A DNA stretch of 34,977 nucleotides. Source: an uncultured Bacillota bacterium. GTDB taxonomy: Bacteria; Bacillota; Clostridia; Oscillospirales; Oscillospiraceae. Shown here piece by piece: positions 3,825 to 33,629 of this stretch (its first letter is position 1; each line of letters starts with the position of its first letter). The notes under the pieces are model-generated. The model was not told where the DNA came from. It did not search any database and saw only the letters and a program-made list of their open reading frames with translations. Position numbers and translations under genes: made by a program. Location: contig CAMWBA010000013.1 in the NCBI GenBank assembly GCA_947172355.1, positions 1-34,977 on the forward strand. The letters are read 5' to 3'.

Positions 3825-3841
3825 GACGGGGGGGACAAACG

Positions 3842-5071
3842 ATGGATCAATATAAACCGCTGGCTGGTATTACGGTGATAGAATTGGCCACCTTTGTGGC
3901 CGCTCCCTATGCCGCCAGAACCATGGCGGACTGGGGCGCCGATGTAATCAAGATCGAGCCGCCCAAGGGCGACCCCATGCGCATGATGGGCGGACTTTTG
4001 AACATGCCGACCGACGACGAACAGGAAAACCCCGCTTATGACCAGCAAAACGCCAATAAACGCGGCATTGTGCTGAACTTGAAGAATCCGGACGGTATGG
4101 CGGCGCTTCACAGGCTGCTTGCTAACGCGGATGTTTTTGTCACCAACAACCGGCAGGAGGCGCTGGAGCGGATGGGGCTGTCTTACGAACAGCTGTCAGA
4201 GAAGTACCCTGCTCTGGTTTACGGCCAGGTGTCTGGCTATGGGGAAAATGGGCCGGATAAAGACCGGCCTGGGTTTGACTTTACCGCCTACTACGCCCGG
4301 GGCGGCATCAGCGGCACACTGTATGAGAAGGATACCGCCCCGCTTCTCACAGTGGCGGCCTTTGGCGATCAGCAGGTCAGTTTGGCCCTGTTATCTGGAC
4401 TGTGTGCTGCGCTGTTCAATGCCAAACGCACCGGAAAAGGGGAAAAGGTCAGCGTCAGCCTATACCAGACAGCCCTGTATTGCATGTGTCATATGATTGC
4501 TTCCAGCCAGTATGGAAAAAACCCCTATCCCCGCAGCCGCCTGGATACAGCCAATCCCTTCCAGGTAGCTTACCCCACTAAGGACGGGCGCTGGATTCAA
4601 GGGGCGGTCAATGCGTACGACAAGGAGTACGCCCGTATTTGCCGCCTGGTGGGCCGGGAGGACTTGGCCGCAGATACACGGTATAACACCTTTCAGAAGG
4701 TCAAGGATAACCCAAGGCCCTTCATCCAGGAACTGGACCAGGCGTTTCGGCAGAAGACCGCGGACGAGTGGGTGAAAATCTTTGACGAGGCCGATCTCCC
4801 CTTTGACAAAGAGATGCTCTGGGAGGAGATTCTGGAGGACCCCCAGGCATGGGGTGACGACGACCTGTGCCGTGTAGAGGGATATCCGGACCATGAAACA
4901 CTTGGCACCAGCCGCATTTTGGTCCGTTCTCCGGTGAAGTTCCGCAATATGGGACTGCCTCCCTATGAAAAGGGCCCGCGGATTGGACAGCACACAGACC
5001 AGATTCTGACCGATGCGGGCTTTTCGCCAGGGGAGATTGAGGCGCTGCGGGCCAGCGGTGCCATCAAATAA
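3842..5071 (+). CDS. Class III CoA-transferase (CaiB/BaiF, HadA/FldA-like)
   Basis: Family III transferases move CoA between carboxylic acids through an aspartyl-CoA anhydride. The 409-residue protein opens with the typical GITVIELATFVAAPYA block and GADVIKIEPPKGDP. It carries the conserved RPGFDFTAYYARGG segment, in which Asp146 is the expected catalytic residue. Directly downstream are both subunits of a 2-hydroxyacyl-CoA dehydratase, the same partnership as HadA-HadBC and FldA-FldBC. The likely job is to load CoA from the pathway's end-product ester onto a 2-hydroxy acid or an acrylate. The ATG at 3842 lies 17 nt after the urocanase stop, behind a G-rich GGGGGGGACAAACG. Carnitine CoA-transferase (CaiB) is an alternative on family grounds only; the neighbours do not support it. 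Confidence 0.9.
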   Translation: MDQYKPLAGITVIELATFVAAPYAARTMADWGADVIKIEPPKGDPMRMMGGLLNMPTDDEQENPAYDQQNANKRGIVLNLKNPDGMAALHRLLANADVFVTNNRQEALERMGLSYEQLSEKYPALVYGQVSGYGENGPDKDRPGFDFTAYYARGGISGTLYEKDTAPLLTVAAFGDQQVSLALLSGLCAALFNAKRTGKGEKVSVSLYQTALYCMCHMIASSQYGKNPYPRSRLDTANPFQVAYPTKDGRWIQGAVNAYDKEYARICRLVGREDLAADTRYNTFQKVKDNPRPFIQELDQAFRQKTADEWVKIFDEADLPFDKEMLWEEILEDPQAWGDDDLCRVEGYPDHETLGTSRILVRSPVKFRNMGLPPYEKGPRIGQHTDQILTDAGFSPGEIEALRASGAIK

Positions 5072-5090
5072 CAAGGAAAGGACTGCTATC

Positions 5091-6305
5091 ATGGGGAATG
5101 AAACGATACGGGCAAAGGATCTGCTGAACCGGCTTCTTGATCGGCACTATCAAGAGGCTTGGACGGCCAAGCGGCAGGGCAAACCGGTGGGCTGGGTCTC
5201 CTCCAATTTTCCGCAGGAGTTTTTGGAAGCTATGGACCTGACGGTGTGTTACCCGGAGAACCATTCCACCTCACTGTCCGCCAAACATGAATCTATGGAT
5301 ATGATCGGTGAAGCGGAGCGATTGGGCTATAACAATGATCTTTGCGGCTATGCACGGGTTAACCTGGGTTTTTTAAGCAAGGGCGGATGTGAGAGCCTGC
5401 AAATGCCCATGCCGGACTATGTGGTATGCAGCAATAATATTTGCAACCAGTTGGTGAAATGGTTTGAAAATGTGGCGAACCTCTGCAACATTCCTTTTAT
5501 TGTCTTTGATATTCCCTTCAATCATGAATACGAGGTCAGCCGGTCCCGCCTGGAATATATGCGGGCACAGATTCCGGAATTGATTGCCCAGCTGGAGAAA
5601 GCTGCCGGAACCAAGTGGAATGAGGCCCGCTTTCAGGAGGTTATGGCAATTTCCAACGAATGTGGGGAGCAGTGGCAACGGGCCTCCCGTTACTTTGAGG
5701 CTGTGCCCAGTCCGATGAACGGCTTTGAGATGTTCAACTATATGGCCCTGATGGTCTGCGCCCGGGGGAGAAGGGAGACTGTGGAGGCAATCCGCCTGCT
5801 GGCAGATGAACTGGAAGAGCGGTATCACACAGGGGAAACCACATTTCGGGGCGAGCCCAGATTCCGGATTATGATGGAAGGCATTGCCTGCTGGCCCCAC
5901 TTGAAGCACAATTATCAGACGCTGAAAAACAACGGCTGTAATTTGACCGGTACTGTCTATACCGAGACCTGGGGGCGTACCTACAAAAATCTGGACGAGA
6001 TGCTCCGGTCCTATAGCGTTGTACTGGATAATACCAATGTTGACCATGCCTGCGACCGGCGCATCCAGTTGGCCCGCCGTGCCTGCTGCGACGGCGCACT
6101 GATCCACATGAACCGGAGCTGTAAGGCGTGGGACGGTATTCTGTATGAGATGGAACGGCGTATCCGCAGTCAAGCAAAGATTCCCACAGCGGTCTATGAC
6201 GGCGACCAATCAGATCCCAGATGCTATTCCGAAGGACAGTACGCGTCCCGGGTGCAGGGACTGTGTGAGGTCATGGAAAACCGCAGAGGGGAGGGGGCGC
6301 AGTGA
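5091..6305 (+). CDS. 2-hydroxyacyl-CoA dehydratase, larger subunit (HadB/FldB-like)
   Basis: This is one of the two [4Fe-4S] subunits that remove water from (R)-2-hydroxyacyl-CoA by a ketyl-radical mechanism to give an enoyl-CoA. The enzyme is oxygen-sensitive and needs one-electron activation by an ATP-driven activase. The protein has 404 residues, usual for HadB/FldB. Conserved cysteines sit at C85 (DLCGYARVN), C113/C118 (CSNNIC) and C344 (NRSCKAWD), the spacing of cluster ligands in this family. The start is ATG 5091 behind AAGGAAAGG; the frame stays open further upstream into the previous gene, but that extension has no family match. It overlaps the next gene by 4 bp, suggesting coupled translation. 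The activator gene is not in the window. Confidence 0.92.
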   Translation: MGNETIRAKDLLNRLLDRHYQEAWTAKRQGKPVGWVSSNFPQEFLEAMDLTVCYPENHSTSLSAKHESMDMIGEAERLGYNNDLCGYARVNLGFLSKGGCESLQMPMPDYVVCSNNICNQLVKWFENVANLCNIPFIVFDIPFNHEYEVSRSRLEYMRAQIPELIAQLEKAAGTKWNEARFQEVMAISNECGEQWQRASRYFEAVPSPMNGFEMFNYMALMVCARGRRETVEAIRLLADELEERYHTGETTFRGEPRFRIMMEGIACWPHLKHNYQTLKNNGCNLTGTVYTETWGRTYKNLDEMLRSYSVVLDNTNVDHACDRRIQLARRACCDGALIHMNRSCKAWDGILYEMERRIRSQAKIPTAVYDGDQSDPRCYSEGQYASRVQGLCEVMENRRGEGAQ

Positions 6306-7429
6306 GCCGGCTGGACTGTATATTAGAGGCGATATCCAACGACGCCAAGCATCCAACCACCGCGATCCGCCGGGAACTGGAGCGTACCCGAAAAAAAGCG
6401 GTGGGTTGTATGCTGGAGTTTTGTCCGGAGGAACTGATCTATGCTGCAGGAATGCTGCCCGTAGGCCTGTGGGGCGGAAATGTGGAATTGTCTCTGGTCA
6501 AAAGGTATTTTCCGGCGTTCTTCTGCGCGCCCGTTCAGCAGAATCTTGAGCTGGCCCTTCAAGGGGCGTTCGATGGGCTTCTCACGGCGGTTATTGTGCC
6601 GATTCTCTGTGACACATTAAAATCAGCTAGCCAAAACTGGCGCATTGCGGTCCCTCAGATTCCCATGATTCCGGTTACATACCCTCAAAATCGCAAATCC
6701 CGCTCCGGACAAGCCTTTTTGCGCTGTGAACTGGAGGATGCCCTGAAAAAATTGGAACAGATAAACCGCTGCAAGGTGTCTGAACAGGATGTAACCAATG
6801 CCATTTTGCTCTATAATCGCTACAGACAGACTATGCGTGAGTTTGCAGAGAGGGCGGCCCATCACACAGACATCATTACACCCGCCGTCCGGCACAGTGT
6901 ATTTCAGGCCGGGTTCTATCGGGATAAGGCGGATTATTTGAGGACTGTGCAGGAATTGACCGCCCAGTTAGAACTGTTTCCCCAGACGAAGGGCCGGCAC
7001 CCCATAGCGCTGACCGGAATTGCACTGGATGTGCCCCGCGTTTTGGAAGCGATGGAACAAAATGGGCTGAGCGTTGCCGCAGACACACTGGCGCAGGAGT
7101 ATGGGCAGGCCGCCTTTCCGGTTCCGGATGGGGACGATGGACTGACCCGGCTGGCGGCTTGGTGGGGGCAGGTCCGCTGCTCCTCGCTGGCCGCAGACCC
7201 CCGAAAGGAGCGAGTGGAATATATGATCCGGCTGGTCCGGGAGGGACGGGCGCAGGGCGTTATTGTGTCAGCCCCTTCCTTCTGCGATCCGGAGGAGTAT
7301 GACGAACCCATTTTCCACAGTGCTTTTCAAGCTGCCGGCATTCCGCACCTATACTTAGAACTGAATGACGCACCCTCCGCAGAACAAGCCGCTGCAAGAG
7401 TTCAGGGTTTTGCGGAAATGCTGCCCTGA
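6302..7429 (+). CDS. 2-hydroxyacyl-CoA dehydratase, smaller subunit (HadC/FldC-like)
   Basis: This is the second dehydratase subunit, 375 residues, typical of HadC/FldC. Visible features are the N-terminal ARKKAVG-like segment and EFCPEELIYAAGMLPV. Cysteines C75 (AFFCAPVQQ), C103 (PILCDTLK) and C328 (SFCDPEEYDEP) are the likely cluster ligands. It starts at GTG 6302, overlapping the stop of the partner gene (GTGA). The closing segment GIPHLYLELND is typical of the subunit's last Rossmann-like fold. Substrate range in this family runs from lactate and 2-hydroxyglutarate to phenyl-lactate and cannot be read from the sequence alone. Confidence 0.9.
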   Translation: MSRLDCILEAISNDAKHPTTAIRRELERTRKKAVGCMLEFCPEELIYAAGMLPVGLWGGNVELSLVKRYFPAFFCAPVQQNLELALQGAFDGLLTAVIVPILCDTLKSASQNWRIAVPQIPMIPVTYPQNRKSRSGQAFLRCELEDALKKLEQINRCKVSEQDVTNAILLYNRYRQTMREFAERAAHHTDIITPAVRHSVFQAGFYRDKADYLRTVQELTAQLELFPQTKGRHPIALTGIALDVPRVLEAMEQNGLSVAADTLAQEYGQAAFPVPDGDDGLTRLAAWWGQVRCSSLAADPRKERVEYMIRLVREGRAQGVIVSAPSFCDPEEYDEPIFHSAFQAAGIPHLYLELNDAPSAEQAAARVQGFAEMLP

Positions 7430-7455
7430 GCGGGCGAGAACAGGAGGCAGACCGA

Positions 7456-8589
7456 ATGATTCATACAGACATGCAGAAGTTGATCCGCAAGTCGGTTCGG
7501 GATTTTGCGCAGAAAGAAGTAGCGCCCCTCGCCGCACAGATTGACGAGACAGGGGAATTTCCGGATGAACTCTATCAAAAGCTGGCAAAAAACAATTATT
7601 TTGGGATTACAATTCCCAAAGAATACGGCGGAACAGGTGCCGGTTATGTGGTCATGTGCATTGTCATGGAGGAGTTGGCCCGCGTATGTGTGTCCACCAC
7701 ATTGCATATTACGTCTCCTAATACCCTTCTGGGACTGCCGCTGGCCAACTACGGTACGCCAGAACAGAAAAAGCGCTACCTGTTACCCGAGATGCGGGGA
7801 GAAAAAGAAGGTACATTCGCCTTGACCGAGCCGGGAGCTGGTTCTGACGCCGCATCTATGAAGACCACTGCGGTCCGGGATGGAGACTACTACATACTGA
7901 ACGGACGCAAGACCTTTATCACCGCAGCCCCTGTGGCGGACTTTGTGGTGGTGTTCGCCGTGACGGATCGGAGCAAGGGCACTCGAGGAATCACGGCCTT
8001 TCTTGTGGAGCGGGGCACACCCGGCTTTTCCACAGGGAAAAAAGAGCGCAAGATGGGGGTGTGCGGCTCCCCGACCAGCGATGTGATTTTGGACCGTGTT
8101 CGGGTCCATAAGAGCCAGATCCTCGGAAAAGAGGGCGAAGGGTTCCTCATGGCCATGAAGACCTTGGATTCCGGCCGTATTGTGGTGGCTGCGCAATGTT
8201 TGGGCATTGCCCAAAGTGCGATGGACGAAGCGGTTAAATATGTGAAAGAGCGCCAGCAGTTCGGCCGGGCGATTGGAAACTTCCAGGGGATTCAGTTTAT
8301 GCTGAGCGATATGGAGACAAAAATCAACTGCGCCCGAGCGCTGATTTATGATACGGCACAGAAAAAGGACCTGGGAATGAACATCACAAAGGAGGCCGCC
8401 ATGGCGAAGTATTTTGCCTCCGAGATGTGTAATGACGTGGCGGCAAAGGCGCTGCAGCTTCATGGTGGATATGGATATATGAAGGACTACCCCATTGAAC
8501 GGATCTTTCGGAACGCTCGGGTGACAACGATTTATGAGGGCACCTCCCAGATCCAGCAAATCGTGATTGCCAAGCAGCTGTTGAAGTGA
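7456..8589 (+). CDS. Acyl-CoA dehydrogenase/enoyl-CoA reductase (AcdB/Bcd-like)
   Basis: A 377-residue FAD flavoprotein of the acyl-CoA dehydrogenase family. The FAD-binding loop [17 protein letters not shown] is followed by the [14 protein letters not shown] and [11 protein letters not shown] blocks. The catalytic base is Glu361 in [10 protein letters not shown]. In anaerobes with adjacent EtfBA these enzymes usually run as reductases of enoyl-CoA, sometimes with electron bifurcation from NADH to ferredoxin. The order dehydratase, AcdB, EtfB, EtfA matches the reductive aryl-lactate (Fld) cluster known from Clostridium sporogenes. The start is ATG 7456 behind CAGGAGGCAG. I infer it reduces the enoyl-CoA produced by the dehydratase or directly by the CoA-transferase. 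Confidence 0.93.
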
Positions 8590-8603
8590 CGGGAGGAACC
8601 GCC

Positions 8604-9392
8604 GTGAAAATGATTGTTTGTGTAAAACAAGTGCCGGATACCGCAGAGGTGCGGATTGATCCTGTCACCCACACCATGATTCGAGATGGAGTGCCCAGCA
8701 TTTTGAACCCTGAGGATGCCAATGCGCTGGAAGAGTCCCTGCGGATCAAGGACCGCCATCCCGGCGCCAAGGTCATCGCGCTGACGATGGGGCCGCCCCA
8801 GGCACAGGCCATGCTTCGGGAGTGTCTGGCTATGGGAGCGGACGAGGCCGTCCTGCTCACGGACCGGGCGGTTGCCGGTGCAGACACCTGGGCGACAGCC
8901 AACACCATCGCTTCTGCGATTCGGGCCCTGGGCGGGGCAGAGCTGATCTTTGTGGGCCGGCAGGCTATTGACGGCGATACCGCCCAGGTTGGCCCCCAGC
9001 TTGCGGAGCGTCTGGGACTGCCCCAGGTAACCTATGTGCAGAAACTGACCACGCTGGAGGACGGCCTGCTTCAAGTGGAACGGCGGATGGAACAGGGCTA
9101 TGAAGTTTTGCGGGTGCGTACTCCTGTTCTCCTGTCTGCGGTCAAGGAATTGAATGCTCCACGCTGCCTTTCCATTCTTGGTATCTGTGAGGCCTATGAG
9201 AAGGAAATTAAAATACTGTCCATCCAGGATCTGGACATTACTCCCGCAGATACCGGCTTGAATGCCTCACCTACAAAAGTATACCGCACCTTTACACCCA
9301 AAACGGAACGAGCGGGTGTGCTTTGGGAGGAGGACGCTGGACGGATGGCTGGCAAACTTTTGACTGCGCTGCGGGAAAAGCACGTTATTTGA
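8604..9392 (+). CDS. etfB: Electron transfer flavoprotein subunit beta
   Basis: EtfB of 262 residues. It opens with MIVCVKQVPDT, has NPEDANALEESLRIK and the GRQAIDGDTAQVGP segment of the beta-subunit fold, and ends in an arm that packs on EtfA. I place the start at GTG 8604, 8 nt after GGGAGG; a GTG at 8586 overlapping the previous stop has no ribosome site. It donates electrons to the preceding acyl-CoA dehydrogenase together with EtfA. Whether it bifurcates electrons cannot be settled by eye. Confidence 0.95.
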   Translation: MKMIVCVKQVPDTAEVRIDPVTHTMIRDGVPSILNPEDANALEESLRIKDRHPGAKVIALTMGPPQAQAMLRECLAMGADEAVLLTDRAVAGADTWATANTIASAIRALGGAELIFVGRQAIDGDTAQVGPQLAERLGLPQVTYVQKLTTLEDGLLQVERRMEQGYEVLRVRTPVLLSAVKELNAPRCLSILGICEAYEKEIKILSIQDLDITPADTGLNASPTKVYRTFTPKTERAGVLWEEDAGRMAGKLLTALREKHVI

Positions 9393-9416
9393 TTGAAACG
9401 GAAGGAGTGATTTGAG

Positions 9417-10436
9417 ATGTCTGTCTCCCAATCTGCTTCCAGCAGCCAAAATGTCTGGGTCTTTGCCGAACTGCGTGACGGTGTGCTTGCCCCCGTTGTG
9501 ATGGAACTGCTCGGCGAGGGGAGAAAACTGGCGGATACGCTGGGCCACAAGCTGTGTGCCGTATTGCTGACCGGCAGTAGCGACAGCCGCCTGCACAGTC
9601 AGCTGGCAGGCTATGGGGCTGATAGGATTTATTCTGCGGCACATCCCCTGCTGGCGCATTACACCACCGACGGCTTTGCTGCCGTACTCACGGAGCTTAT
9701 TTTGCAGGAGAGCCCAGAGATCGTTCTCTTTGGCGCTACCCATGTGGGCCGTGATCTGGCCCCCCGCATTGCCGCAAGGGTCAATACTGGTCTTACCGCT
9801 GACTGTACCAGCCTGGATATCGACCCGGAAACCGGCAATCTGCGCCAAACTCGTCCGGCTTTTGGCGGAAACCTGATGGCCACCATCCTATGCCCGGTTC
9901 GCAGACCTCAGATGTCCACGGTTCGCCCTGGTGTGATGGACAAGGCTGTATTTCTGGAGGGGCGCAGCGCTGAAATTATTCCAATATGTCCTGCATTAAA
10001 AGAGGAGCAGATCCGTACACAGTTGATTCAAGCAGTGTCAGAAACCCTTCATCAAGTGTCGCTTTCAGAAGCGAGGGTAATCGTATCGGGCGGTCTCGGG
10101 TTGGGGGGACCTGAGGGCTATGAGCTGTTGAAGAAACTCGCCGGCCGATTGGGCGGGACCATAGGCGCTTCTCGAGCAGCGGTGGATGCTGGTTGGATTG
10201 ACCCCACTCGTCAGGTTGGACAGACTGGGACAACCGTCAAACCGGATGTGTATATTGCATGCGGTATTTCGGGCGCAATTCAGCACCTGGCCGGAATGAA
10301 AGGTTCCAAGATAATTATTGCAATTAATACCAACCGGGAAGCCCCTATTTTTGAGGTGGCCGACTATGGACTTGTGGGCGATTATAAAGAGGTGATTCCT
10401 GCTATTTTGGAGCGGTTGGAGAGAACAATTTCATAG
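9417..10436 (+). CDS. etfA: Electron transfer flavoprotein subunit alpha
   Basis: EtfA of 339 residues. The C-terminal FAD domain is clear: [18 protein letters not shown], then [32 protein letters not shown] and [21 protein letters not shown]. The N-terminal half matches the alpha-subunit fold ([30 protein letters not shown]). The start is ATG 9417 behind GGAGTGATTTGAG. It is the last gene of the urocanase/dehydratase operon; no intrinsic terminator with a T run follows, only the stem-loop at 10498-10525. Confidence 0.96.
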
Positions 10437-10497: not shown

Positions 10498-10525
10498 GGC
10501 AGCCCGCGCCTTGGCGCGGGCTGCC
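10498..10525. repeat. Perfect 13-bp GC inverted repeat between etfA and the regulator
   Basis: GGCAGCCCGCGCC (10498-10510) and GGCGCGGGCTGCC (10513-10525) are exact reverse complements around TT. No T run follows. It may be a protein-binding site, a leader hairpin of the regulator mRNA, or a weak terminator for the etf operon. Confidence 0.65.
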
Positions 10526-10572
10526 AGCTGTAAATCGGAGCAAATGAACTCTTTTGTTATGGAGGAACTGCT

Positions 10573-13395
10573 ATGGTAGTAAACGCTTGTTTTCTCGGAA
10601 AACCCAAGGTCTTGATTGATGGTATCCCGATTGCCTTGGAACAGACGAAGATATATGCGCTGCTTTTGTATGTTCTCTTTAATGGAAGCGGCACCCGGGA
10701 CGAGTTGGCAGAGCTGCTTTGGTGCGATTATCCAATGGAGAATGCCAGAAGGAATCTGCGCAACAGCCTCCATAAACTGAAAACGATTGTGGGGGACAAG
10801 CTGTTGGACGCCAAGGGGCATTCATTGATTCGGGTTTCCGACGCTGTGACACTCTGCCGTGATGTAGACCTCTTTATTACAGAGAATAGTCAGACGCAGC
10901 TGCTCTCTCTGGACAGCTATGTGTTTCTCAGGCACTTCTACGTGAAAAATTGTCCTGAATTTGACCGCTGGATTACCAGTATGCAGAATGTCTATGAAAA
11001 GCTAATTGTCAAACGGTTCACAAAAGAGCTGCAAAACAGCATTTTGAAACAGATGGATCATCGGACCGAGCAATATGCAACCCGAATTTTGGAGATAGCC
11101 CCCTATCATGAGGAGGCTTGCCGCGCTTTGATGCAGGTCAACCTCCAGCGCGGCGACTACAATACTGCTATGGCACATTATCAAAAGCTGAAAAAGGAGC
11201 TGGAGGAGGGGCTGGGTGTCTCTCCGGAGAGCGAGACAGAGCGCCTATTTCAGCAGCTCTTGAAAGCAAAACGTTCGGTTCAGCAAGTGGTATTTGATGC
11301 AGAAAGTCAGCATACGCAGGCGTTGGTGGAAAAACTAGACTATGAATATCACAGCTTCCGTCTGGGACACAAAATCAGCCATTATATCCTCAGCGGCGAT
11401 ATCGGAATGGGGAAGAGCCAGGTTCTTCAAGCGTTTCTGGAACGGGTCAACCGAAGAGAGGTAATCGAACTCGCATTTCAGCTGTCGTACCGCAGGGTGC
11501 CTTTTTATGGTGCAGAGCGTCTGGTGGAGCTGTTATCCCATCTGGTAAAAACACCTGCCTCCAAGAAACAGGAACAATACAGAGGAAACGACGCGCTTTA
11601 TTATTTCAAAGCGCTGAACCGGCTGTTTGAGGTGATGCAGAATGAAGCGTGCCGTTATGTGCTGGTACTGCAAAACCTGGAGGCCATCGACCGGGCCAGT
11701 ATGGATATCTTTATAGCCTGTCTGTTTGAACATGTACCGGTTTCATTGTTCATTGTCAGCGAATACTGTCCTAATTTTGAGGAGGACACCAAATTTTTGG
11801 ACAAAGTGATGCTTCTTCCTCGGGTTCGGCTTTTGCAGTTTCCGCCTTTAAACGAACACGCCAGTGCTGCTTATTTACGCAAGCATCTTGACCGGCGGTT
11901 TGATCGGGATGAGGTAATACAGGAGGGCTTTGAGTGTACTGGAGGCAACCTTCTTCTGCTTCAGGAATTTGTACACAACGTTGAAAACGGCAATGCAAAA
12001 CCGTATACTCTATCGGCCGAAGGAAACCGAATGGTCAACAAGCTGCTTTCCAGTCTGAGTGAGGAGGAGTCCCGTGTGCTGGAGGTACTGGCCGTTCTGG
12101 ATTTGGCGGAAGTGGAGGCAATTGCTCAAATTATGCAGCGCCCTTCGATCCAAGTCATCCAGGTGCTGGATGACCTGTCCCGCCGGAACTGGATTTGGGA
12201 GCAGGAGGAGAATGGACATCTGCTGCTCCGAAACCGGTTCGGGCTGATTAAGAGCCGGTTATGTGAATGTATGCCGAAGTATAAGCGGATGGAGTTTCAC
12301 CGCATCGCGCTGGACTACTATGAGCACAGCTATCAGCAAAACACAAAGGATCTGTTTTATATCACCCAGCTGTGCACACACTCCCGCAATACCTTTAACG
12401 CGCAAAAGAAAATTTACTATCATATCCTTCATCTTGAACGGGTTCTGGACTACTTTGATGAATTTTTCCCAACTATTTTGGATGATACCATTCAATATAA
12501 GGAGCGTTGGCTCATCAGCCGGGAGGAGACCTATGCCCGTTTTGAGCAGTACAGCGCAGAACTTCAAGCGTTGGAGGACGAATTGCCCTCCGCGCAGTAT
12601 TATGAGCTGCGCATGAAACTGGATTTTCTGCAGGGGCGAGCTATGATCCGCAGCGGACAGAGAAATATTGGATTGGGTATTATTCAAAATCTGGTAGCAT
12701 TGGCGGAGAAGCTGGAACAAAACGAAATGTTGATGAAAGGCTATGTAGAAATTCTGTGCTATGCAGTACGTGCAGAGGATACCGCGCTGATGAAACAATA
12801 TATTGATTTGGTGTTCAAAATAAAAGATTTTGAAAAATATGAAAAAGATAATGGTGTGTTCCTTCGGCTTCAAGGGTATCTCCACATGTTAAACGGACAA
12901 TATAATGCCGCCGAGCGCTGTTATAAACAATCCATTGCCATCTTTGAACGTCCGAAATTGAGGAGCACGAACTATTTCAATATAGCAGGGGCCTACGATT
13001 ATCTGGCGCTTAACAGCAGGCGGCAGATGAATCTGGAGGAAGCGCTGATCTATATTCATAAAGCCATTGACCTGTGCGTGGAGAAGAACGTTCAAAAAAG
13101 CCTGGACCTTTTCTACGAGGACTGTGGCTATATCCTGTTTTTGAAGGGGGATTATCAAGCGGCGGAACGCTATCTCCTGAAAAGTATAGAGCTGTATGAA
13201 CAGTTTGATACCTACTGGCTGCGGTCCATCGCGGAGAGCAGTTTGGCCATGATCTATGCGTCCGATGATCTCCGGGACTCTGCCCTGGAGCATTTTCGGA
13301 AAGCGGAGGTGTTCAGCCAAAAAGAGATGGCGCAGGAGGAACTTGTGGTGTTGGAGCAGGCCCGCTGTGTGCTGAAAAAAGCAAATATTTTATAA
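10573..13395 (+). CDS. SARP/BTAD-type regulator with ATPase and TPR repeats
   Basis: A 940-residue multidomain protein. Residues 1-95 resemble an OmpR-like winged helix (KPKVLIDGIPI, RDELAELLW, ARRNLRNSLHKLK). Residues about 100-240 form a bacterial transcriptional activation domain of helical repeats (EEACRALMQVNLQRGDY, EEGLGVSPE). A STAND/AAA-type ATPase follows, with Walker A GDIGMGKS at about 274-281 and a hydrophobic Walker-B-like strand VLVLQNLEAID near 362. From about 690 onward, repeated A-x-x-Y/F helices look like TPRs (NAAERCYKQSIAIFE, QAAERYLLKSIELYE). Such proteins usually sense a signal through the TPR/ATPase part and activate neighbouring operons. The ATG at 10573 follows TATGGAGGAACTGCT. 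It is the likely regulator of the upstream operon (position-based inference). Confidence 0.88.
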   Translation: MVVNACFLGKPKVLIDGIPIALEQTKIYALLLYVLFNGSGTRDELAELLWCDYPMENARRNLRNSLHKLKTIVGDKLLDAKGHSLIRVSDAVTLCRDVDLFITENSQTQLLSLDSYVFLRHFYVKNCPEFDRWITSMQNVYEKLIVKRFTKELQNSILKQMDHRTEQYATRILEIAPYHEEACRALMQVNLQRGDYNTAMAHYQKLKKELEEGLGVSPESETERLFQQLLKAKRSVQQVVFDAESQHTQALVEKLDYEYHSFRLGHKISHYILSGDIGMGKSQVLQAFLERVNRREVIELAFQLSYRRVPFYGAERLVELLSHLVKTPASKKQEQYRGNDALYYFKALNRLFEVMQNEACRYVLVLQNLEAIDRASMDIFIACLFEHVPVSLFIVSEYCPNFEEDTKFLDKVMLLPRVRLLQFPPLNEHASAAYLRKHLDRRFDRDEVIQEGFECTGGNLLLLQEFVHNVENGNAKPYTLSAEGNRMVNKLLSSLSEEESRVLEVLAVLDLAEVEAIAQIMQRPSIQVIQVLDDLSRRNWIWEQEENGHLLLRNRFGLIKSRLCECMPKYKRMEFHRIALDYYEHSYQQNTKDLFYITQLCTHSRNTFNAQKKIYYHILHLERVLDYFDEFFPTILDDTIQYKERWLISREETYARFEQYSAELQALEDELPSAQYYELRMKLDFLQGRAMIRSGQRNIGLGIIQNLVALAEKLEQNEMLMKGYVEILCYAVRAEDTALMKQYIDLVFKIKDFEKYEKDNGVFLRLQGYLHMLNGQYNAAERCYKQSIAIFERPKLRSTNYFNIAGAYDYLALNSRRQMNLEEALIYIHKAIDLCVEKNVQKSLDLFYEDCGYILFLKGDYQAAERYLLKSIELYEQFDTYWLRSIAESSLAMIYASDDLRDSALEHFRKAEVFSQKEMAQEELVVLEQARCVLKKANIL

Positions 13396-28469: not shown

Positions 28470-30011
28470 TCAGCTCAATGCTCCTGTTACGGTTTCGGCC
28501 ACTTGAATCAGTTGACCGGAGTGAATAAAGTCCTTTAAGTACTCAAGATAGGGGTGGAGAAGCATATCCTTTTCCAGCACCGGAACGGTTTTGCCGATCT
28601 CAGCCAGCACCGCCGCTGTGGCGGGGGCGCGATTCACGTCCGGATCTACAAACTGCTGGACCTCATAGACGCTGAGCAGCTCGATGGCCAGCATATACTC
28701 CAACTTCTCCGCCATGGGGCCCGCCTTTTTGCAGGCGTTGTAACCCATGGCCACATAGTCCTCCTGGTTGCCGCAGGTGGGGGTGTTGTCAATGGTGGAG
28801 GGGGTGGCCAGCATCCGCATCTCGTTGAGCAGACCGGCCTGGACATACTGGGGAATCATCAGTCCGGAGTTCAGCCCCGGATTTTTAATACAGAAATATG
28901 GGTAGCCCGACAGAGAGCCGTCCACAATCCGGTTGTTTCGCCGTTCAGACATTTTTGCCAGTCCCACAGCGGCAATGCAGGCGCTGTCCATCTCCATACC
29001 TACGTAGGCCGAGTCGGCGTTACAGGCGGAGATCACATCCTCGTTGCCCGTCTCCGGCCAGATGATGGGGTTGTCACAGCAGGAATTCATCTCAATTTCG
29101 ATGGTTTTCTTTGCGTCCTCCAGGGTCTTCCGGGCCGCGCCGTGGAGCTGGGGGATGCAGCGCAGGGACAGGGCGTCCTGCACCCGGCTGCCTTTGTACT
29201 TCTCCATGATGCCGGAACCCCTCAGCATCCGCCGGACATTTTCGGAAGCGTTGAGCTGGTCTGGGTGGGGGCGGACCGCCATAACCCGGGGGTCAAAGGC
29301 GTTGATTACCCCTTTCATAGCTTCCAGGGACATAGCGCCGATGATGTCGGCGGATTTGGCAGCGTTGAGCATGTCATAGAGGGCCAGGGCTGCCATGGCG
29401 GTGGCGGAAGTGGTGCCGGACACCAAAGCCAGCCCCTCCTTGGAACTGAGGGCCATGGGTTCCAGACCCGCTTTTGCCAGCGCCTCGCCGCCCTCCAGCT
29501 GCTCTCCGTTGTAATAGGCTTTCCCACGGCCCAGCAGCACCAGTGCCATATGGGCCTCAGGGGAGAGATAGCCCACGCTGCCGTCGCCAGGGGCGTAAGG
29601 AGTCAGGCCGATGTTGAGGAAGGCCTTATACTGCTCCAGCACCTCCATCCGCACTCCGCTGTATCCCTGCCCGATGTTTTGCAGAACCATGAGCATGGTG
29701 CCCCGCACCCGCTCGATACTAAGCGGTTCCCCTACGGAGACCGAGTGGGACAGGATGATGTTTTCCTGAAGCTGGGCGGTCTCCTCTTTGCCGATTGCCT
29801 TGGTACACAGTGCACCGAAGCCGGTGGTGACGCCGTACATCACCCGCTCTTCCTCCACCCACTGTTCCACCAGGGCCCGGGAGCGGTTCACCCGCTGGAT
29901 ATATTCCGGAGAAAATTCCACCTTCCGCCCAAACCGGGCCACAGATACAAAGTCCTCCAACGTAATGGGCTCGCCCAAAACCAATACGTTTTTCTCGTCC
30001 AACCAATTCAT
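28470..30011 (-). CDS. MIO-less aromatic amino acid lyase homologue, candidate ergothionase
   Basis: A 513-residue protein of the histidine/phenylalanine ammonia-lyase fold. Conserved parts are Y59-G-V-T-T-G-F-G, GSVG (144-147), AHMALVLLGRG, SLRC-PQ, DNPI, SERR and QEDYVAMG. In canonical enzymes GSVG is followed by Ala-Ser-Gly, which cyclises to the MIO cofactor. Here GSVG runs straight into YLSPEAHM, so these three residues are missing. The usual ALxNGT Asn is Ser (LVSGTT) and the catalytic Tyr of QDxYS is Leu (QDALS). The DNA shows no frameshift. Ergothionase, described from Treponema denticola, is an MIO-lacking homologue that eliminates trimethylamine from ergothioneine to give thiourocanate. 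The adjacent BCCT transporter supports that role. Ordinary histidine ammonia-lyase activity is unlikely. The start is ATG 30011 behind GGGAGGTATTTCGAT. Confidence 0.88.
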   Translation of the reverse strand: MNWLDEKNVLVLGEPITLEDFVSVARFGRKVEFSPEYIQRVNRSRALVEQWVEEERVMYGVTTGFGALCTKAIGKEETAQLQENIILSHSVSVGEPLSIERVRGTMLMVLQNIGQGYSGVRMEVLEQYKAFLNIGLTPYAPGDGSVGYLSPEAHMALVLLGRGKAYYNGEQLEGGEALAKAGLEPMALSSKEGLALVSGTTSATAMAALALYDMLNAAKSADIIGAMSLEAMKGVINAFDPRVMAVRPHPDQLNASENVRRMLRGSGIMEKYKGSRVQDALSLRCIPQLHGAARKTLEDAKKTIEIEMNSCCDNPIIWPETGNEDVISACNADSAYVGMEMDSACIAAVGLAKMSERRNNRIVDGSLSGYPYFCIKNPGLNSGLMIPQYVQAGLLNEMRMLATPSTIDNTPTCGNQEDYVAMGYNACKKAGPMAEKLEYMLAIELLSVYEVQQFVDPDVNRAPATAAVLAEIGKTVPVLEKDMLLHPYLEYLKDFIHSGQLIQVAETVTGALS

Positions 30012-30089: not shown

Positions 30090-31667
30090 TTACCCCTCGA
30101 TCTGGTCCACACTGTCCACAATGTCCTTCTTGGTCTCCGGATCAAAGAAGAACACCTTGAAGGCTGCCGCGACCTGGAAGATAAAGACAATCAGCACCAC
30201 AAAGCCGCCGCAGGCCGCCAGGTACTTCACGCCGTCCACACCCTGGGCACCGCCGCCAAAGGCCACCATGATGCAGGCGATCACGCCGATGGACACGCCC
30301 CAGACGATTTTCTGCCAGATGGCGGGTTCCTCGTCGTGGCGGGCGCCCTTGGTACACAGGGCGGCAATGGTGGTGGACATGGTGTCCGCGGTGGTGGAGA
30401 ACGCGGCAATCAAGGCCAGAATAATCACAGGAATGATAATCATGCCCAGCGGCACATGCTTGAGGAACTCCCACAGCCCGGCGGTAGCCCCACCGGCTTG
30501 AATGGCGGCGATGATGTCAGCATTGCCGGACTTCTGCCACTCCAGGGCGGTGGAACCCCATACGGCAAACCAAACATAGCCGAAGGAGGCGGGCAGAATC
30601 CAGTTGACGATGAGGAACTGCCGAATGGTGCGTCCATAGGCGATGATGGCGAAGAAGATGCCCATCAGGGGGGCGTAGGCAATCCAGATGGCCCAGTCAT
30701 ACATAGTCCACCAGGTGACCAGGGCGGAGCCACCCACGGTGTAGGGGTCGAAGCCCCACATCCAGAACCGATCCAGCCAGTAGCCCAGGCCCACATTGGC
30801 CATGTTTAGGATATAGACGGTGGGGCCAATGATAAACAGCAGGACCAGCAGAATATAGAAAATTTTGGAGGTCAAGCCGGCCAGCCACTTGATGCCCTTG
30901 TCGATGCCGGTGACCGAAGCAATGGTAAAGGTGATGGTGATGATGGCGGTGAGAGCCACCCATACGATGGGGCCCTGGGCCACGCCATAGGCGGAGTAGA
31001 GGCCGGAGCCGATGAGGGCCAGACCGGCGCCCAGAGAGGCCGCCAGGCCCAGGGCGATGGCCAGCACAGAAAGCACGTCCACCAGCACTACCCAGATACC
31101 CTTGGTCACCCGTTCGCCGAAAATGGGGGTGAGGGAGGCGGCCACAGACAGGTCCTTCTTGCGGTTGAAGTACATGTAGGCGATGAGCACTCCGGACAGG
31201 GCATACATGGCGTAGGGAATAAAGGTCCAGTTGTAGAAGCAGCGGCCCATGGAGAACAGCTCGGCCTCTTGGGTCAGCGGGGTAATGCCGTAGCCGTCCA
31301 GTTCGCCGTAGATGTTGCCGTAGTAGATCAGCACCTCGTTGACGCCGTAAGTAATCAGGCCGGTGGCGATCCCACCGGTGAGCGTCATGGCAAACCAGGA
31401 GCCGAAGGAGTGCTTGGCCTTGGCCTCCGGACCGCCGAAGCGGATCTTGCCCACCTTGGTGAACAACAGCAGCGCGGCCAGCAGCAATGTCACCATCGCT
31501 ACGATCTGATACAGCCAGCCGAAGTTGGTCAGCGACCAGTCAAACACCGCATAGGTGGCGCTGGTCAGCCAATCGTTGGTGACGATGCCCAGTAGGGCTG
31601 AGCCGCCGATGACGATGAAGCAGGGGATGAATACGTCCCATCGGATCGGTTTGTTTTCATGTTTCAT
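30090..31667 (-). CDS. BCCT-family transporter for a betaine-type substrate
   Basis: A 525-residue membrane protein with twelve predicted helices. The family block in helix 8 is WWTMYDWAIWIAYAPLMGIF, giving the Trp/Tyr box that binds quaternary ammonium groups. Other family parts are GSWFAMTLTGGIATGLITYG, FSTTADTMSTTIAALCTKG and a C-terminal basic/acidic tail. The start is ATG 31667 (MKHENKPIRWD) behind CGGAGAAACAC; the frame runs further upstream but that part is not protein-like. BCCT carriers move glycine betaine, choline, carnitine or dimethylsulfoniopropionate. Ergothioneine is also a trimethyl-betaine, so uptake of it fits the neighbouring lyase (inference). It is the first gene of the minus-strand operon, behind a sigma-54-type promoter. 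Confidence 0.93.
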   Translation of the reverse strand: MKHENKPIRWDVFIPCFIVIGGSALLGIVTNDWLTSATYAVFDWSLTNFGWLYQIVAMVTLLLAALLLFTKVGKIRFGGPEAKAKHSFGSWFAMTLTGGIATGLITYGVNEVLIYYGNIYGELDGYGITPLTQEAELFSMGRCFYNWTFIPYAMYALSGVLIAYMYFNRKKDLSVAASLTPIFGERVTKGIWVVLVDVLSVLAIALGLAASLGAGLALIGSGLYSAYGVAQGPIVWVALTAIITITFTIASVTGIDKGIKWLAGLTSKIFYILLVLLFIIGPTVYILNMANVGLGYWLDRFWMWGFDPYTVGGSALVTWWTMYDWAIWIAYAPLMGIFFAIIAYGRTIRQFLIVNWILPASFGYVWFAVWGSTALEWQKSGNADIIAAIQAGGATAGLWEFLKHVPLGMIIIPVIILALIAAFSTTADTMSTTIAALCTKGARHDEEPAIWQKIVWGVSIGVIACIMVAFGGGAQGVDGVKYLAACGGFVVLIVFIFQVAAAFKVFFFDPETKKDIVDSVDQIEG

Positions 31668-31677
31668 GTGTTTCTCC

Positions 31678-31700
31678 GTATGCGGCGCTCGGCCGCATAC
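31678..31700 (-). promoter_or_regulatory. Leader hairpin touching the transporter ribosome site
   Basis: GTATGCGGC (31678-31686) and GCCGCATAC (31692-31700) are perfect 9-bp arms with a 5-base loop. In the minus-strand mRNA the stem ends directly before GGAG, the ribosome site of the BCCT gene. It could tune translation or protect the mRNA end. Confidence 0.6.
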
Positions 31701-31731
31701 TCTCCTTTCCTCAAAGTTGCTTTTATAAATA

Positions 31732-31747
31732 AGCATTCCATGGGCCA
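31732..31747 (-). promoter_or_regulatory. Sigma-54 (-24/-12) promoter of the transporter-lyase operon
   Basis: On the minus strand TGGCCC-N5-ATGCT has GG and GC at the exact -24/-12 spacing of the consensus TGGCAC-N5-TTGCW. It would start transcription about 54 nt before the BCCT start codon. The divergent gene encodes a sigma-54 activator, which strongly supports the match. Confidence 0.68.
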
Positions 31748-31801
31748 GGTTGAGAAAATAGGAAGAAATACGATGAAATTTGTGGGGGCTGCACGATTTT
31801 G

Positions 31802-31914
31802 TTTTGCTAAAACTATGCAAATCGCCGAGGAACGAAAGCCTAGGGCACGGCAAAGTCATTCAATTTCTCCCACACAAGAGCAAAAAATTTTGCATATTGC
31901 AATTATATTTTGCA
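31802..31914. promoter_or_regulatory. TTTTGC/GCAAAA repeats, candidate activator-binding sites
   Basis: TTTGC-N9-GCAAA lies at 31803-31821 and GCAAAA-AA-TTTTGC at 31880-31893. TTGCAA (31897-31902) and TTTTGCA (31908-31914) follow. These stand about 60-170 bp upstream of the -24/-12 promoter, the usual distance for enhancer sites of sigma-54 activators, and just before the regulator's own promoter. With the promoters and hairpin listed they fill the 31668-31979 spacer. Confidence 0.5.
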
Positions 31915-31979: not shown

Positions 31980-33629
31980 ATGCTCTATGACATTCTGTTT
32001 ACGCTGGACCCGAAGGGCCGGTTTCAATCGGTGTCCTGGGGAAGCCAGGAGGCTGAGGGGTTGTACCGGGACCTCTTTGAAAGCTGGGCTGCCACCCAGC
32101 GGGCAATCGACACCGCCTTCTCTTTGCCGGAAAGGGCGGAGTGCGGCCGGTTCTGCTGGGAGGAAACGGCCTTTGACTTCCAATTCCTTCCTGCACCGAA
32201 GGACCAACGCTACCTGCTGTTAAAGCGGGAGGATAACCGTCCGTATCTTCTGGCGCGTGCCTTGGACCAGATAGGGGATGGGGTTCAGATTTATGACAAG
32301 AATGCCTGTGTGGTCTATTTTAATAAGGCCAGCCGGGGAATTTCTCAAATTCCCAGCGGTGTGAGTGTAGAGGGACGGCACCTGCTGGACCTGTATAATC
32401 TGGAGGAGAGCGTGAGCACCACCATGACCGCACTCCAGACCCAGGCACCGGTGATTGACCGGGTGGACCGCTTTCGTGTCAACGATTTTAATGCAGCGCC
32501 CATTGCTTCGGCGAACACCTCCTACCCCATTTTCCGAAACGGGGAGCTGCTGGGGGCGGTGGTCTTTGAACAGACCGAGGAGATTGTGGAGCGGAACATC
32601 AAAAAGCTGGAGGCCACCCGGCGGGCGCTGGCCGCATTCCCGCAGAAGCTGCCCAAAGTCAGCTTTTCCGGCTATACGTTCGACAATGTGATTGGTAGCT
32701 GCTCCAAACTGCGGGAGGCGGTGGCGCTGGCCCAGCGGGTGGCCCAGCAGGACAGCCCGATTCTTCTGGTGGGAGAGACGGGAACCGGCAAGGAAATCTT
32801 TGCCCAGAGCATCCACCGCGCCAGCCCCCGACGGGGAAGGAAATTCCTGGCCATCAACTGTGCCGCCATACCGGAGCCCCTTATTGAAGGGCTGCTTTTC
32901 GGCACCCAGCGAGGCAGCTTTACCGGCAGCGAGGATAAGGCGGGATACTTTGAGGAGGCCGCCGGCGGTACGCTTTTTTTGGACGAGCTGAACTCCATGA
33001 GTCTGGCCATGCAGTCTAAAATTTTGCGTGTAATCCAGGAAAAGACCTTCCGCCGGGTGGGGGGCGGCCGGGACCTAAAGCTGGATGTGCGCATTGTCTC
33101 CTCCTGCAATGAGGACCCCTTCAAGGCTGTTTCTGAAAATACCTTCCGCCGGGACCTGTTTTACCGGCTGTCCACCGTGATGATTGAGCTGCCGCCTCTC
33201 CGGGAGCACCTGGAGGACCTGGAAGAGCTGGTGCGTTATCACCTGGAGGCCACCGCCTATCAGTTTGTCCACTCCATCACGCAGATGGAAGCGGAGGTCT
33301 ATGGACTTCTGCGGGCGTACCACTGGCCGGGGAATGTGCGGGAGCTGTTTCACGTGCTGGATTACGCCCAAAATGTTGCCGACTCCGGCATAATCGAGGT
33401 TCGGCATCTGCCGCCCTATCTGCTCAAACACCACGCTGGTCCGGAGCCCCCGCAGGAGATTGATTTTTCCCGTGAGACGCTTCAGAGCCTGATGGACCGA
33501 TATGAACAGGAGATTATTTCCAAAGCGCTGGACCATTGCGGGTTCAATATCTCACAGACGGCCCAGACCTTGGGGATCCTGCGGCAGAGTTTGCAATATC
33601 GGATTCGGAAATATGGGCTGATTTTCTAA
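31980..33629 (+). CDS. PAS-domain sigma-54-dependent transcriptional activator
   Basis: A 549-residue enhancer-binding protein of RocR-like order. A sensory N-terminal half contains a PAS-like domain at about 85-200 (DQIGDGVQIYDKNACVVYFN). The AAA+ domain has Walker A GETGTGKE (about 264-271), the sigma-54 contact loop as GSFTGS (about 311-316; consensus GAFTGA), Walker B GTLFLDEL and a FRRDLFYRLS sensor segment. A Fis-type helix-turn-helix ends it (NISQTAQTLGILRQSLQYRI). The start is ATG 31980 behind TAAGGAGGCGGCCT. It is divergent from the BCCT-lyase operon, whose promoter is of the -24/-12 type, so that operon is the likely target. The PAS domain may sense the imported substrate or a product. 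Confidence 0.95.
   Translation: MLYDILFTLDPKGRFQSVSWGSQEAEGLYRDLFESWAATQRAIDTAFSLPERAECGRFCWEETAFDFQFLPAPKDQRYLLLKREDNRPYLLARALDQIGDGVQIYDKNACVVYFNKASRGISQIPSGVSVEGRHLLDLYNLEESVSTTMTALQTQAPVIDRVDRFRVNDFNAAPIASANTSYPIFRNGELLGAVVFEQTEEIVERNIKKLEATRRALAAFPQKLPKVSFSGYTFDNVIGSCSKLREAVALAQRVAQQDSPILLVGETGTGKEIFAQSIHRASPRRGRKFLAINCAAIPEPLIEGLLFGTQRGSFTGSEDKAGYFEEAAGGTLFLDELNSMSLAMQSKILRVIQEKTFRRVGGGRDLKLDVRIVSSCNEDPFKAVSENTFRRDLFYRLSTVMIELPPLREHLEDLEELVRYHLEATAYQFVHSITQMEAEVYGLLRAYHWPGNVRELFHVLDYAQNVADSGIIEVRHLPPYLLKHHAGPEPPQEIDFSRETLQSLMDRYEQEIISKALDHCGFNISQTAQTLGILRQSLQYRIRKYGLIF

Follow-up and report, generated by a model that had tools for sequence, protein, structure and literature searches.

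The locus considered here raises the question of what is cleaved by an aromatic-lyase homologue that lacks the residues from which the electrophilic MIO group is formed. The gene lies in a stretch of 34,977 nucleotides from an uncultured Bacillota bacterium (below, the window means this whole stretch). The following alternatives are to be distinguished: the protein could be an ergothionase (ergothioneine trimethylamine-lyase), as an earlier note on this DNA had considered likely; it could release trimethylamine from another betaine, such as hercynine (histidine betaine, N-alpha-trimethyl-L-histidine); or it could be a residual or inactive form of histidine ammonia-lyase (HAL, HutH). Elimination of trimethylamine in the absence of MIO is the known principle of ergothionase.

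The lyase gene (protein P0001) occupies positions 28470..30011, as had been noted before, and we find it on the minus strand, with the ATG at 30011, the stop codon at 28470, and 513 codons with no internal stops. In a profile search, the PF00221 model covers nearly the whole protein (543 bits), which places it in this superfamily, and its AF2 model has a pLDDT of 93.1. Four further genomes of the genus have orthologues 81–92% identical to it, all with the same GSVGY loop, and dN/dS relative to the 92% orthologue is 0.050/0.66; judged by this comparison, the gene is under purifying selection. A frameshift or a pseudogene was considered and rejected, as the frame is open, the loop is kept in the orthologues and dN/dS is low. 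Since the same loop recurs in the four genomes of the genus and in the named genera listed below, and dN/dS is low, the MIO-less loop is not a sequencing artefact; the uninterrupted frame also bears out the earlier description of the DNA as clean. The expectation that automatic annotation would call the gene hutH held for relatives with the same loop (L071 and L251), which pass the NCBIfam hutH models, and failed for P0001, which scores 499 with TIGR01225 (cut-off 539) and 518 with NF006871 (cut-off 524). As it falls just under both cut-offs, the label hutH would not come from these models alone.

In the alignment, the HutH loop GSLGASGDLAPLAHM corresponds to GSVGYLSPEAHM in the lyase, which is three residues shorter; therefore, the lyase lacks the Ala-Ser-Gly from which MIO forms by cyclisation. 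As the earlier note had read, residues 144–147 are GSVG and YLSPEAHM follows directly (codons of residues 144–149, 29565..29582, minus strand), so GSVG-YL stands where HutH has its Ala/Ser-Ser-Gly triad. The proposed match of YLSPEAHM to DLAPLAHM is correct as to the shortening by three residues, and the counterpart of Tyr148 is decided by the gap placement, being the Asp after Ala-Ser-Gly in that reading and Ala in the MAFFT alignment. The other residue assignments made at that time agree with our alignment: the Asn of LxNGT (N195 of HAL) is Ser198 (codon 29418..29420, minus strand), the Tyr of QDxYS (HAL Tyr280) is Leu281 (codon 29169..29171, minus strand), and the retained Tyr, Arg and Glu are Tyr59, Arg284 and Glu417.

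Residues were tallied over 63 rows (GSVGY, n = 31; ergothionase-type, n = 9; HutH, n = 23). None of the 63 rows departs from Tyr59, His89 or Glu417, and none of the 31 GSVGY rows from Tyr148. Met385 is present in 31/31 GSVGY and 23/23 HutH rows, and is replaced by Ser or Gly in 9/9 ergothionase-type rows; Gln416 of the lyase is also HAL-like, the ergothionase-type rows having Ile, Val or Ser. Position 198 is Ser in 18 of the 31 GSVGY rows and Asn in all 23 HutH rows, and the deep GSVGY branches retain Asn. Position 281 is Leu in 26/31 GSVGY rows, Tyr in 23/23 HutH rows, and Leu or Val in 9/9 ergothionase-type rows. Residue 332 (Ala in P0001; Phe329 in HAL) is Ala, Pro or Cys in 26/31 GSVGY rows; the five GSVGY rows of subtype C keep Phe332 and mostly Tyr281. 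Glu152 and Asp333 each occur in 30 of the 31 GSVGY rows. HAL residue numbers 280 and 329 also occur in PDB titles; the roles of the HAL residues are those given in the literature, where the counterparts of His89 and Glu417 are the imidazole contacts. The lyase keeps the HAL-type Tyr59, His89, Gln278, Arg284, Met385 and Glu417, and its changes relative to HAL are on the amine side (N to S, Y to L, F to A, and the new Tyr148). Thus, by this tally the lyase resembles HAL where the imidazole would bind and ergothionase where the amine would lie. Such a pattern is what a hercynine lyase would need, and the retained Met385 would suit an unsubstituted imidazole; the substrate is one that we infer from these residues.

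The earlier note had named the closest characterised relatives as a check, such that MIO-containing lyases in that place would speak against an ergothionase. MIO-containing HALs score up to 295 bits with the lyase, higher than the T. denticola (Treponema denticola) ergothionase PDB 6S7J (179 bits), and the host genome has a separate, clear ergothionase elsewhere (640 bits to 6S7J). As a PF00221 protein without MIO, the lyase resembles ergothionases, and in place of the ergothionase loop [GS]S[VI]GE[GA]DI, a pattern that we set from 6S7J and its nearest relatives, it has GSVGYLSPEAHM. In a tree built without the loop and active-site columns, a branch with support 99/95 sets the 39 GSVGY rows apart, as it does in 100% of the 200 bootstrap trees; the 11 ergothionase-type rows, including 6S7J, are grouped at 100/100 with the lyase excluded. 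Loci L157-L159 also contributed ergothionase-type sequences. The 27 MIO rows were on one side in 0 of 200 bootstrap trees, so no replicate unites the two MIO-less groups. In the first tree (63 rows), the 31 GSVGY rows were grouped at 94/89. The canonical rows were 23 of 105 in the first tree (22 chosen for diversity and the host's own HutH), with four more in the second; L066, the L065 fragment and two pieces of L178 were omitted for unreadable loops. The AU test did not reject a common clade of GSVGY and ergothionase-type rows (p = 0.34 with 63 rows, 0.40 with 77 rows).

As far as scores and trees can tell, the GSVGY-L clade is separate from the ergothionase-type group and nearer to HutH. Ergothionase by descent was thus rejected in its direct form, as membership in the group, on the bit scores and the 100/100 grouping, and a shared MIO-less ancestor is compatible with the AU test. 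Separate losses of MIO with a convergent N to S replacement are favoured, because the loop deletions differ (three residues versus one) and the deep GSVGY branches keep Asn198. Hence the part of the earlier interpretation that describes a MIO-less lyase stands, and the label of ergothionase is probably wrong, on the scores above and on group, loop and pocket, a sister-group origin with ergothionases not being rejected. Compared with the T. denticola enzyme (6S7J/6S7Q), the lyase shares the PF00221 fold, the absence of MIO, the N to S and Y to L replacements and the retained Tyr base, Arg and Glu, whereas it is only 27% identical, and its loop is three residues shorter than that of HutH, while SIGEGDI of ergothionase is one shorter. 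Unlike HutH/HAL (Pseudomonas putida 1B8F, Thermoplasma acidophilum 7TQR), it has no Ala-Ser-Gly and hence no MIO, has Leu for Tyr280, Ala for Phe329 and Ser for Asn, and is encoded next to a transporter of the BCCT family. Group, loop and pocket would place the lyase outside the ergothionases, and MIO and score would place it outside HutH.

The GSVGY family looks rare. From the best 80 of 587 relatives found in GTDB, 79 loci were obtained, 17 of them with GSVGY and an 18th (L066) cut off before the loop; the protein of the latter, from a Lawsonibacter MAG, is 96% identical to the lyase over residues 202–513, which makes a Lawsonibacter-like gut member of the Oscillospiraceae the probable host. 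The GSVGY taxa among the matches listed are Acidaminococcus, Clostridium mobile, Geosporobacter, Bacillus, Alkalihalobacillus, Acinetobacter, Paenibacillus and several MAGs. In a sample of the taxonomic family (400 genomes), MIO-less loci were confined to the genus among the loci taken, those of the higher-ranked matches; in the order (197 genomes), six other genomes had a match, with canonical loops; in the phylum (398 genomes), the four matches outside the genus above 1e-122, a threshold that deeper MIO-less members would miss, are all canonical by loop. The plasmid collection (895 records) gave only matches below 60% identity.

Several features of MIO-less lyases were observed besides. The host genome encodes a third MIO-less lyase (P0003; L004/L015, contig C8), with the loop GSVGMSDLGN and 354 bits to 6S7J; by eye, it adjoins an M20-like hydrolase and a LysR-like gene, and its locus contains no BCCT gene. 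A xanthine-dehydrogenase-like molybdenum hydroxylase lies beside ergothionase in four loci from three genera (L014 and L256 by Pfam; L257 and L258 by eye), and one of the same type was found by homology in the GSVGY locus L068; thiourocanate or urocanate may be its substrate. L055 (790-5508), L060 (1-2949), L054 (6162-9287), L063 (9995-14953) and L068 (8272-18588) each contain two or three distinct genes for MIO-less lyases, in tandem or close to each other. Active sites in the PF00221 family form between subunits, so mixed oligomers with several substrates are possible. Aconitase-X (AcnX) is encoded beside MIO-less lyases of different groups (L049 and L067 by Pfam; L048, L055 at 237-797 and L259 at 10523-11764 by homology or eye). 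In a one-contig genome of the genus, four partial PF00221 matches in two open frames (L178-L181; G552 C1:1866317-1868342) appear to be incomplete or decaying paralogues.

The next gene upstream of the lyase, in the same direction, encodes a BCCT-family (betaine/carnitine/choline) transporter (30090..31859, minus strand; PF02028 358 bits, cut-off 27), whose likely start, by eye, is an internal Met near 31667. We compared 33 GSVGY loci, comprising 17 GTDB loci (from the best 80 of 587 relatives), seven of the genus, the window, and eight fetched later (L248-L255), of which L254 and L255 come from genomes that had already contributed a locus; contig ends truncate some of the 33. A BCCT gene is present in 16 of the 33 (GTDB, 9/17; genus, 5/7; the window; L254), and in none of the 61 canonical-only GTDB loci, again among the best 80 of 587 relatives. 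Taxon bias as the cause of this link was tested on HutH loci of the same family, where BCCT was found in 0/20. The control loci were checked for four kinds of gene, namely BCCT, HutU, HutI and the activator described below. Among the GSVGY loci, L071 has an OpuAC-type ABC importer. The BCCTs beside subtype A, to which P0001 belongs, are 57–98% mutually identical in ten loci (the window and nine others). A BCCT gene also adjoins the host's own ergothionase on contig C5, and the subtype-A proteins are only 32–34% identical to this transporter (the one in the window, 34%). A second BCCT group accompanies tandem or other subtypes, plus one lone subtype-A gene (L049).

Divergently from the BCCT gene, a PrdR-like sigma-54-dependent activator is encoded at 31980..33629 on the plus strand (PF00158 204 bits, HTH_8; PrdR model 350 bits, below the cut-off of 795). 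Its homologues adjoin the lyase in 11 other loci, and it is the probable regulator of the BCCT-lyase pair. A candidate sigma-54-type -24/-12 promoter with two mismatches lies upstream of the pair (31732..31747, minus strand). In the window alone, such sites are at the chance level (22 found versus 21.8 expected). Over the activator-bearing loci, all 12 regions that precede the lyase or the BCCT-lyase pair have a candidate with at most two mismatches on the operon strand, while random stretches of the same 12 loci gave a mean of 1.06 and a maximum of 4/12 in 100 draws; the 12 loci are not independent, because seven of them (the window, L046-L050 and L052) come from the genus of the window.

HutU and HutI are both encoded in 12 of the 33 GSVGY loci (L056, L062, L064, L065, L067, L071 and L248-L253; the GTDB part from the best 80 of 587 relatives), whereas neither was found in any of the six ergothionase-type loci examined (L014, L015, L256-L259). 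Four of the hut-linked loci are of subtype A, like P0001 (L056, L062, L064, L065), and three of these (L056, L062, L065) also contain a canonical HutH. In the family of Paenibacillus eucommiae, all six loci L248-L253 consist of an MFS carrier, the lyase, an AraC regulator, HutG, HutU, HutI, glutamate dehydrogenase and malic enzyme (in two pieces in L252), the names being assigned by models for L251, where HutG is just under the cut-off, and by homology or eye for the others. A canonical HutH is encoded elsewhere in five of the six genomes; as HutH is also present in L056, L062 and L065, hutU and hutI may serve histidine too. In Acinetobacter ANC 4558, HutU, HutI, HutG, glutamate dehydrogenase and the lyase are contiguous, with no HutH in that locus. 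The 10.3 Mb genome of P. eucommiae yielded a single PF00221 protein, the lyase, and a single urocanase, and since the assembly is a draft, a HutH may have been missed; the run there comprises betaine-type permeases, an OpuAC binding protein, an ATPase, the lyase, HutU, HutI and a HutG-like protein just below the cut-off. The MFS carrier beside the lyase-hut run in L248-L253 (e.g. L251, 10811-12154) reaches 176, short of the cut-off of 551, with TIGR00898, a model for organic cation transporters, and is a candidate hercynine carrier.

The urocanases were compared with the NCBIfam models for urocanate hydratase (hutU, cut-off 375), thiourocanate hydratase and S-methyl-thiourocanate hydratase (cut-offs 930 and 880). 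All nine tested, eight in GSVGY loci (with L251 alone representing L248-L253) and the distant one of the window, pass hutU and fail the other two. Five short urocanases score 988–1020 with hutU versus 688–744 with the others; the four long ones, including that of the window, score 432–455 versus 302–368, and discriminate weakly, because they are far from all three models. No hut gene adjoins the lyase in the window, where the nearest urocanase is divergent, about 25 kb away and part of another gene run. This run (1812-10436, plus strand) encodes the divergent long urocanase, a class III CoA-transferase, two HGD-D dehydratase subunits, an acyl-CoA dehydrogenase and EtfBA, and is possibly a reductive fermentation pathway for a urocanate-related acid. 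It is followed by a large regulator (10573-13395, plus strand) of the same family as the BTAD-type ones near the ergothionase (L014) and in L067.

From the residues and gene neighbourhoods, the lyase very probably acts on some trimethylammonium betaine, and we consider a cofactor-free hercynine trimethylamine-lyase, yielding urocanate, its probable identity. Urocanate absorbs near 277 nm, and thiourocanate at about 311 nm. In the proposed mechanism, the unsubstituted imidazole would be bound by Glu417, His89 and Met385 in the manner of HAL and the carboxylate by Arg284, and Tyr59 would take the beta-proton, while the trimethylammonium group would sit in the widened pocket, possibly in a cation-pi contact with Tyr148; its departure as neutral trimethylamine would need no electrophilic MIO. 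The adjacent BCCT transporter would bring in the betaine, the activator would switch on the BCCT-lyase pair, and in the relatives urocanate would pass to HutU, HutI and HutG. An MttB-type methyltransferase (PF06253), a dedicated consumer of trimethylamine, was found in 0 of 13 genomes searched, the host genome being only 77% complete; hence, trimethylamine is probably released and likely exported. In this the lyase would be similar to the gut choline TMA-lyase and the gamma-butyrobetaine enzyme BbuA, which free trimethylamine from quaternary amines; both are unrelated to it as proteins, the first being a glycyl radical enzyme and the second a flavoenzyme that resembles acyl-CoA dehydrogenases (PMC8364193). 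The following counts against hercynine: BCCT is missing from 17 and HutU with HutI from 21 of the 33 loci, some of which are cut by contig ends; L248-L253 carry the MFS carrier and no betaine transporter; and a molybdenum hydroxylase such as those beside ergothionases is present in one GSVGY locus (L068).

If the lyase were nevertheless an ergothionase, or acted on an ergothioneine derivative (S-methyl-ergothioneine or ergothioneine sulfonate), the product would be of the thiourocanate type, and the gene could be a paralogue of the host's ergothionase differing in affinity or regulation. This is unlikely: the loss of MIO, the N to S and Y to L replacements and the adjacent BCCT are common to both kinds of lyase, and a single MIO-less clade is not rejected, but the low score to 6S7J beside that of the other gene in the genome, the exclusion from the ergothionase-type group, the HAL-like Met385 and Gln416, the distant BCCT, and the urocanases beside the relatives, which in the cases tested match hutU rather than thiourocanate hydratase, all speak against this reading. 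The transporter implies a betaine of some kind, and the several subtypes and tandem paralogues in the clade mean that substrates may differ within it; the lyase could thus release trimethylamine from another amino-acid betaine (e.g. that of tryptophan, tyrosine or phenylalanine) or from a ring-methylated histidine betaine. We rate this as unlikely too, slightly below the ergothionase reading. Against it, a link to hutU and hutI needs urocanate, and His89 and Glu417, the imidazole contacts of HAL, do not vary in any of the 63 rows.

A weak or residual histidine ammonia-lyase that manages without MIO, or a partner of HutH with no catalysis of its own, would fit the place of HALs among the nearest characterised relatives and the hut clusters that the lyase can share with HutH (L056, L062, L065). 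Histidine deamination without MIO is very slow, and an inactive partner does not agree with the retained catalytic base and substrate-binding residues, the low dN/dS, or the hut run of P. eucommiae with the lyase as the sole PF00221 protein found; moreover, BCCT is absent from all 81 canonical control loci (61 GTDB loci, among the best 80 of 587 relatives, and 20 of the same family). We regard this explanation as very improbable, and hercynine as the most probable substrate.

For the family as a whole, the chances seem to us evenly balanced that the clade is a second MIO-free HAL-family lineage, evolved apart from ergothionase, of hercynine trimethylamine-lyases linking betaine uptake to histidine utilisation, in which some subtypes and tandem paralogues may act on additional imidazole betaines, and whose gut members would form an unrecognised route from diet-derived hercynine to trimethylamine. 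In humans, ingested ergothioneine is reported to be converted mainly to hercynine (PMC7653990). Ergothionase was judged rare in gut bacteria in a 2026 paper which relies on BLAST with one Burkholderia sequence and notes that divergent homologues fell outside its scope; the GSVGY clade is the kind of sequence that such a single-query search would label ammonia-lyase (PMC13405746). Should the hercynine reading hold, the activity would be one of which the literature searched, which missed key ergothioneine papers, gave no report, either as hercynine cleavage or as a hercynine lyase. It would also mean that a second lineage of the enzyme family does without MIO, would account for genes that pass, or nearly pass, current hutH models, and would give gut Bacillota a further source of trimethylamine, from which TMAO is formed.
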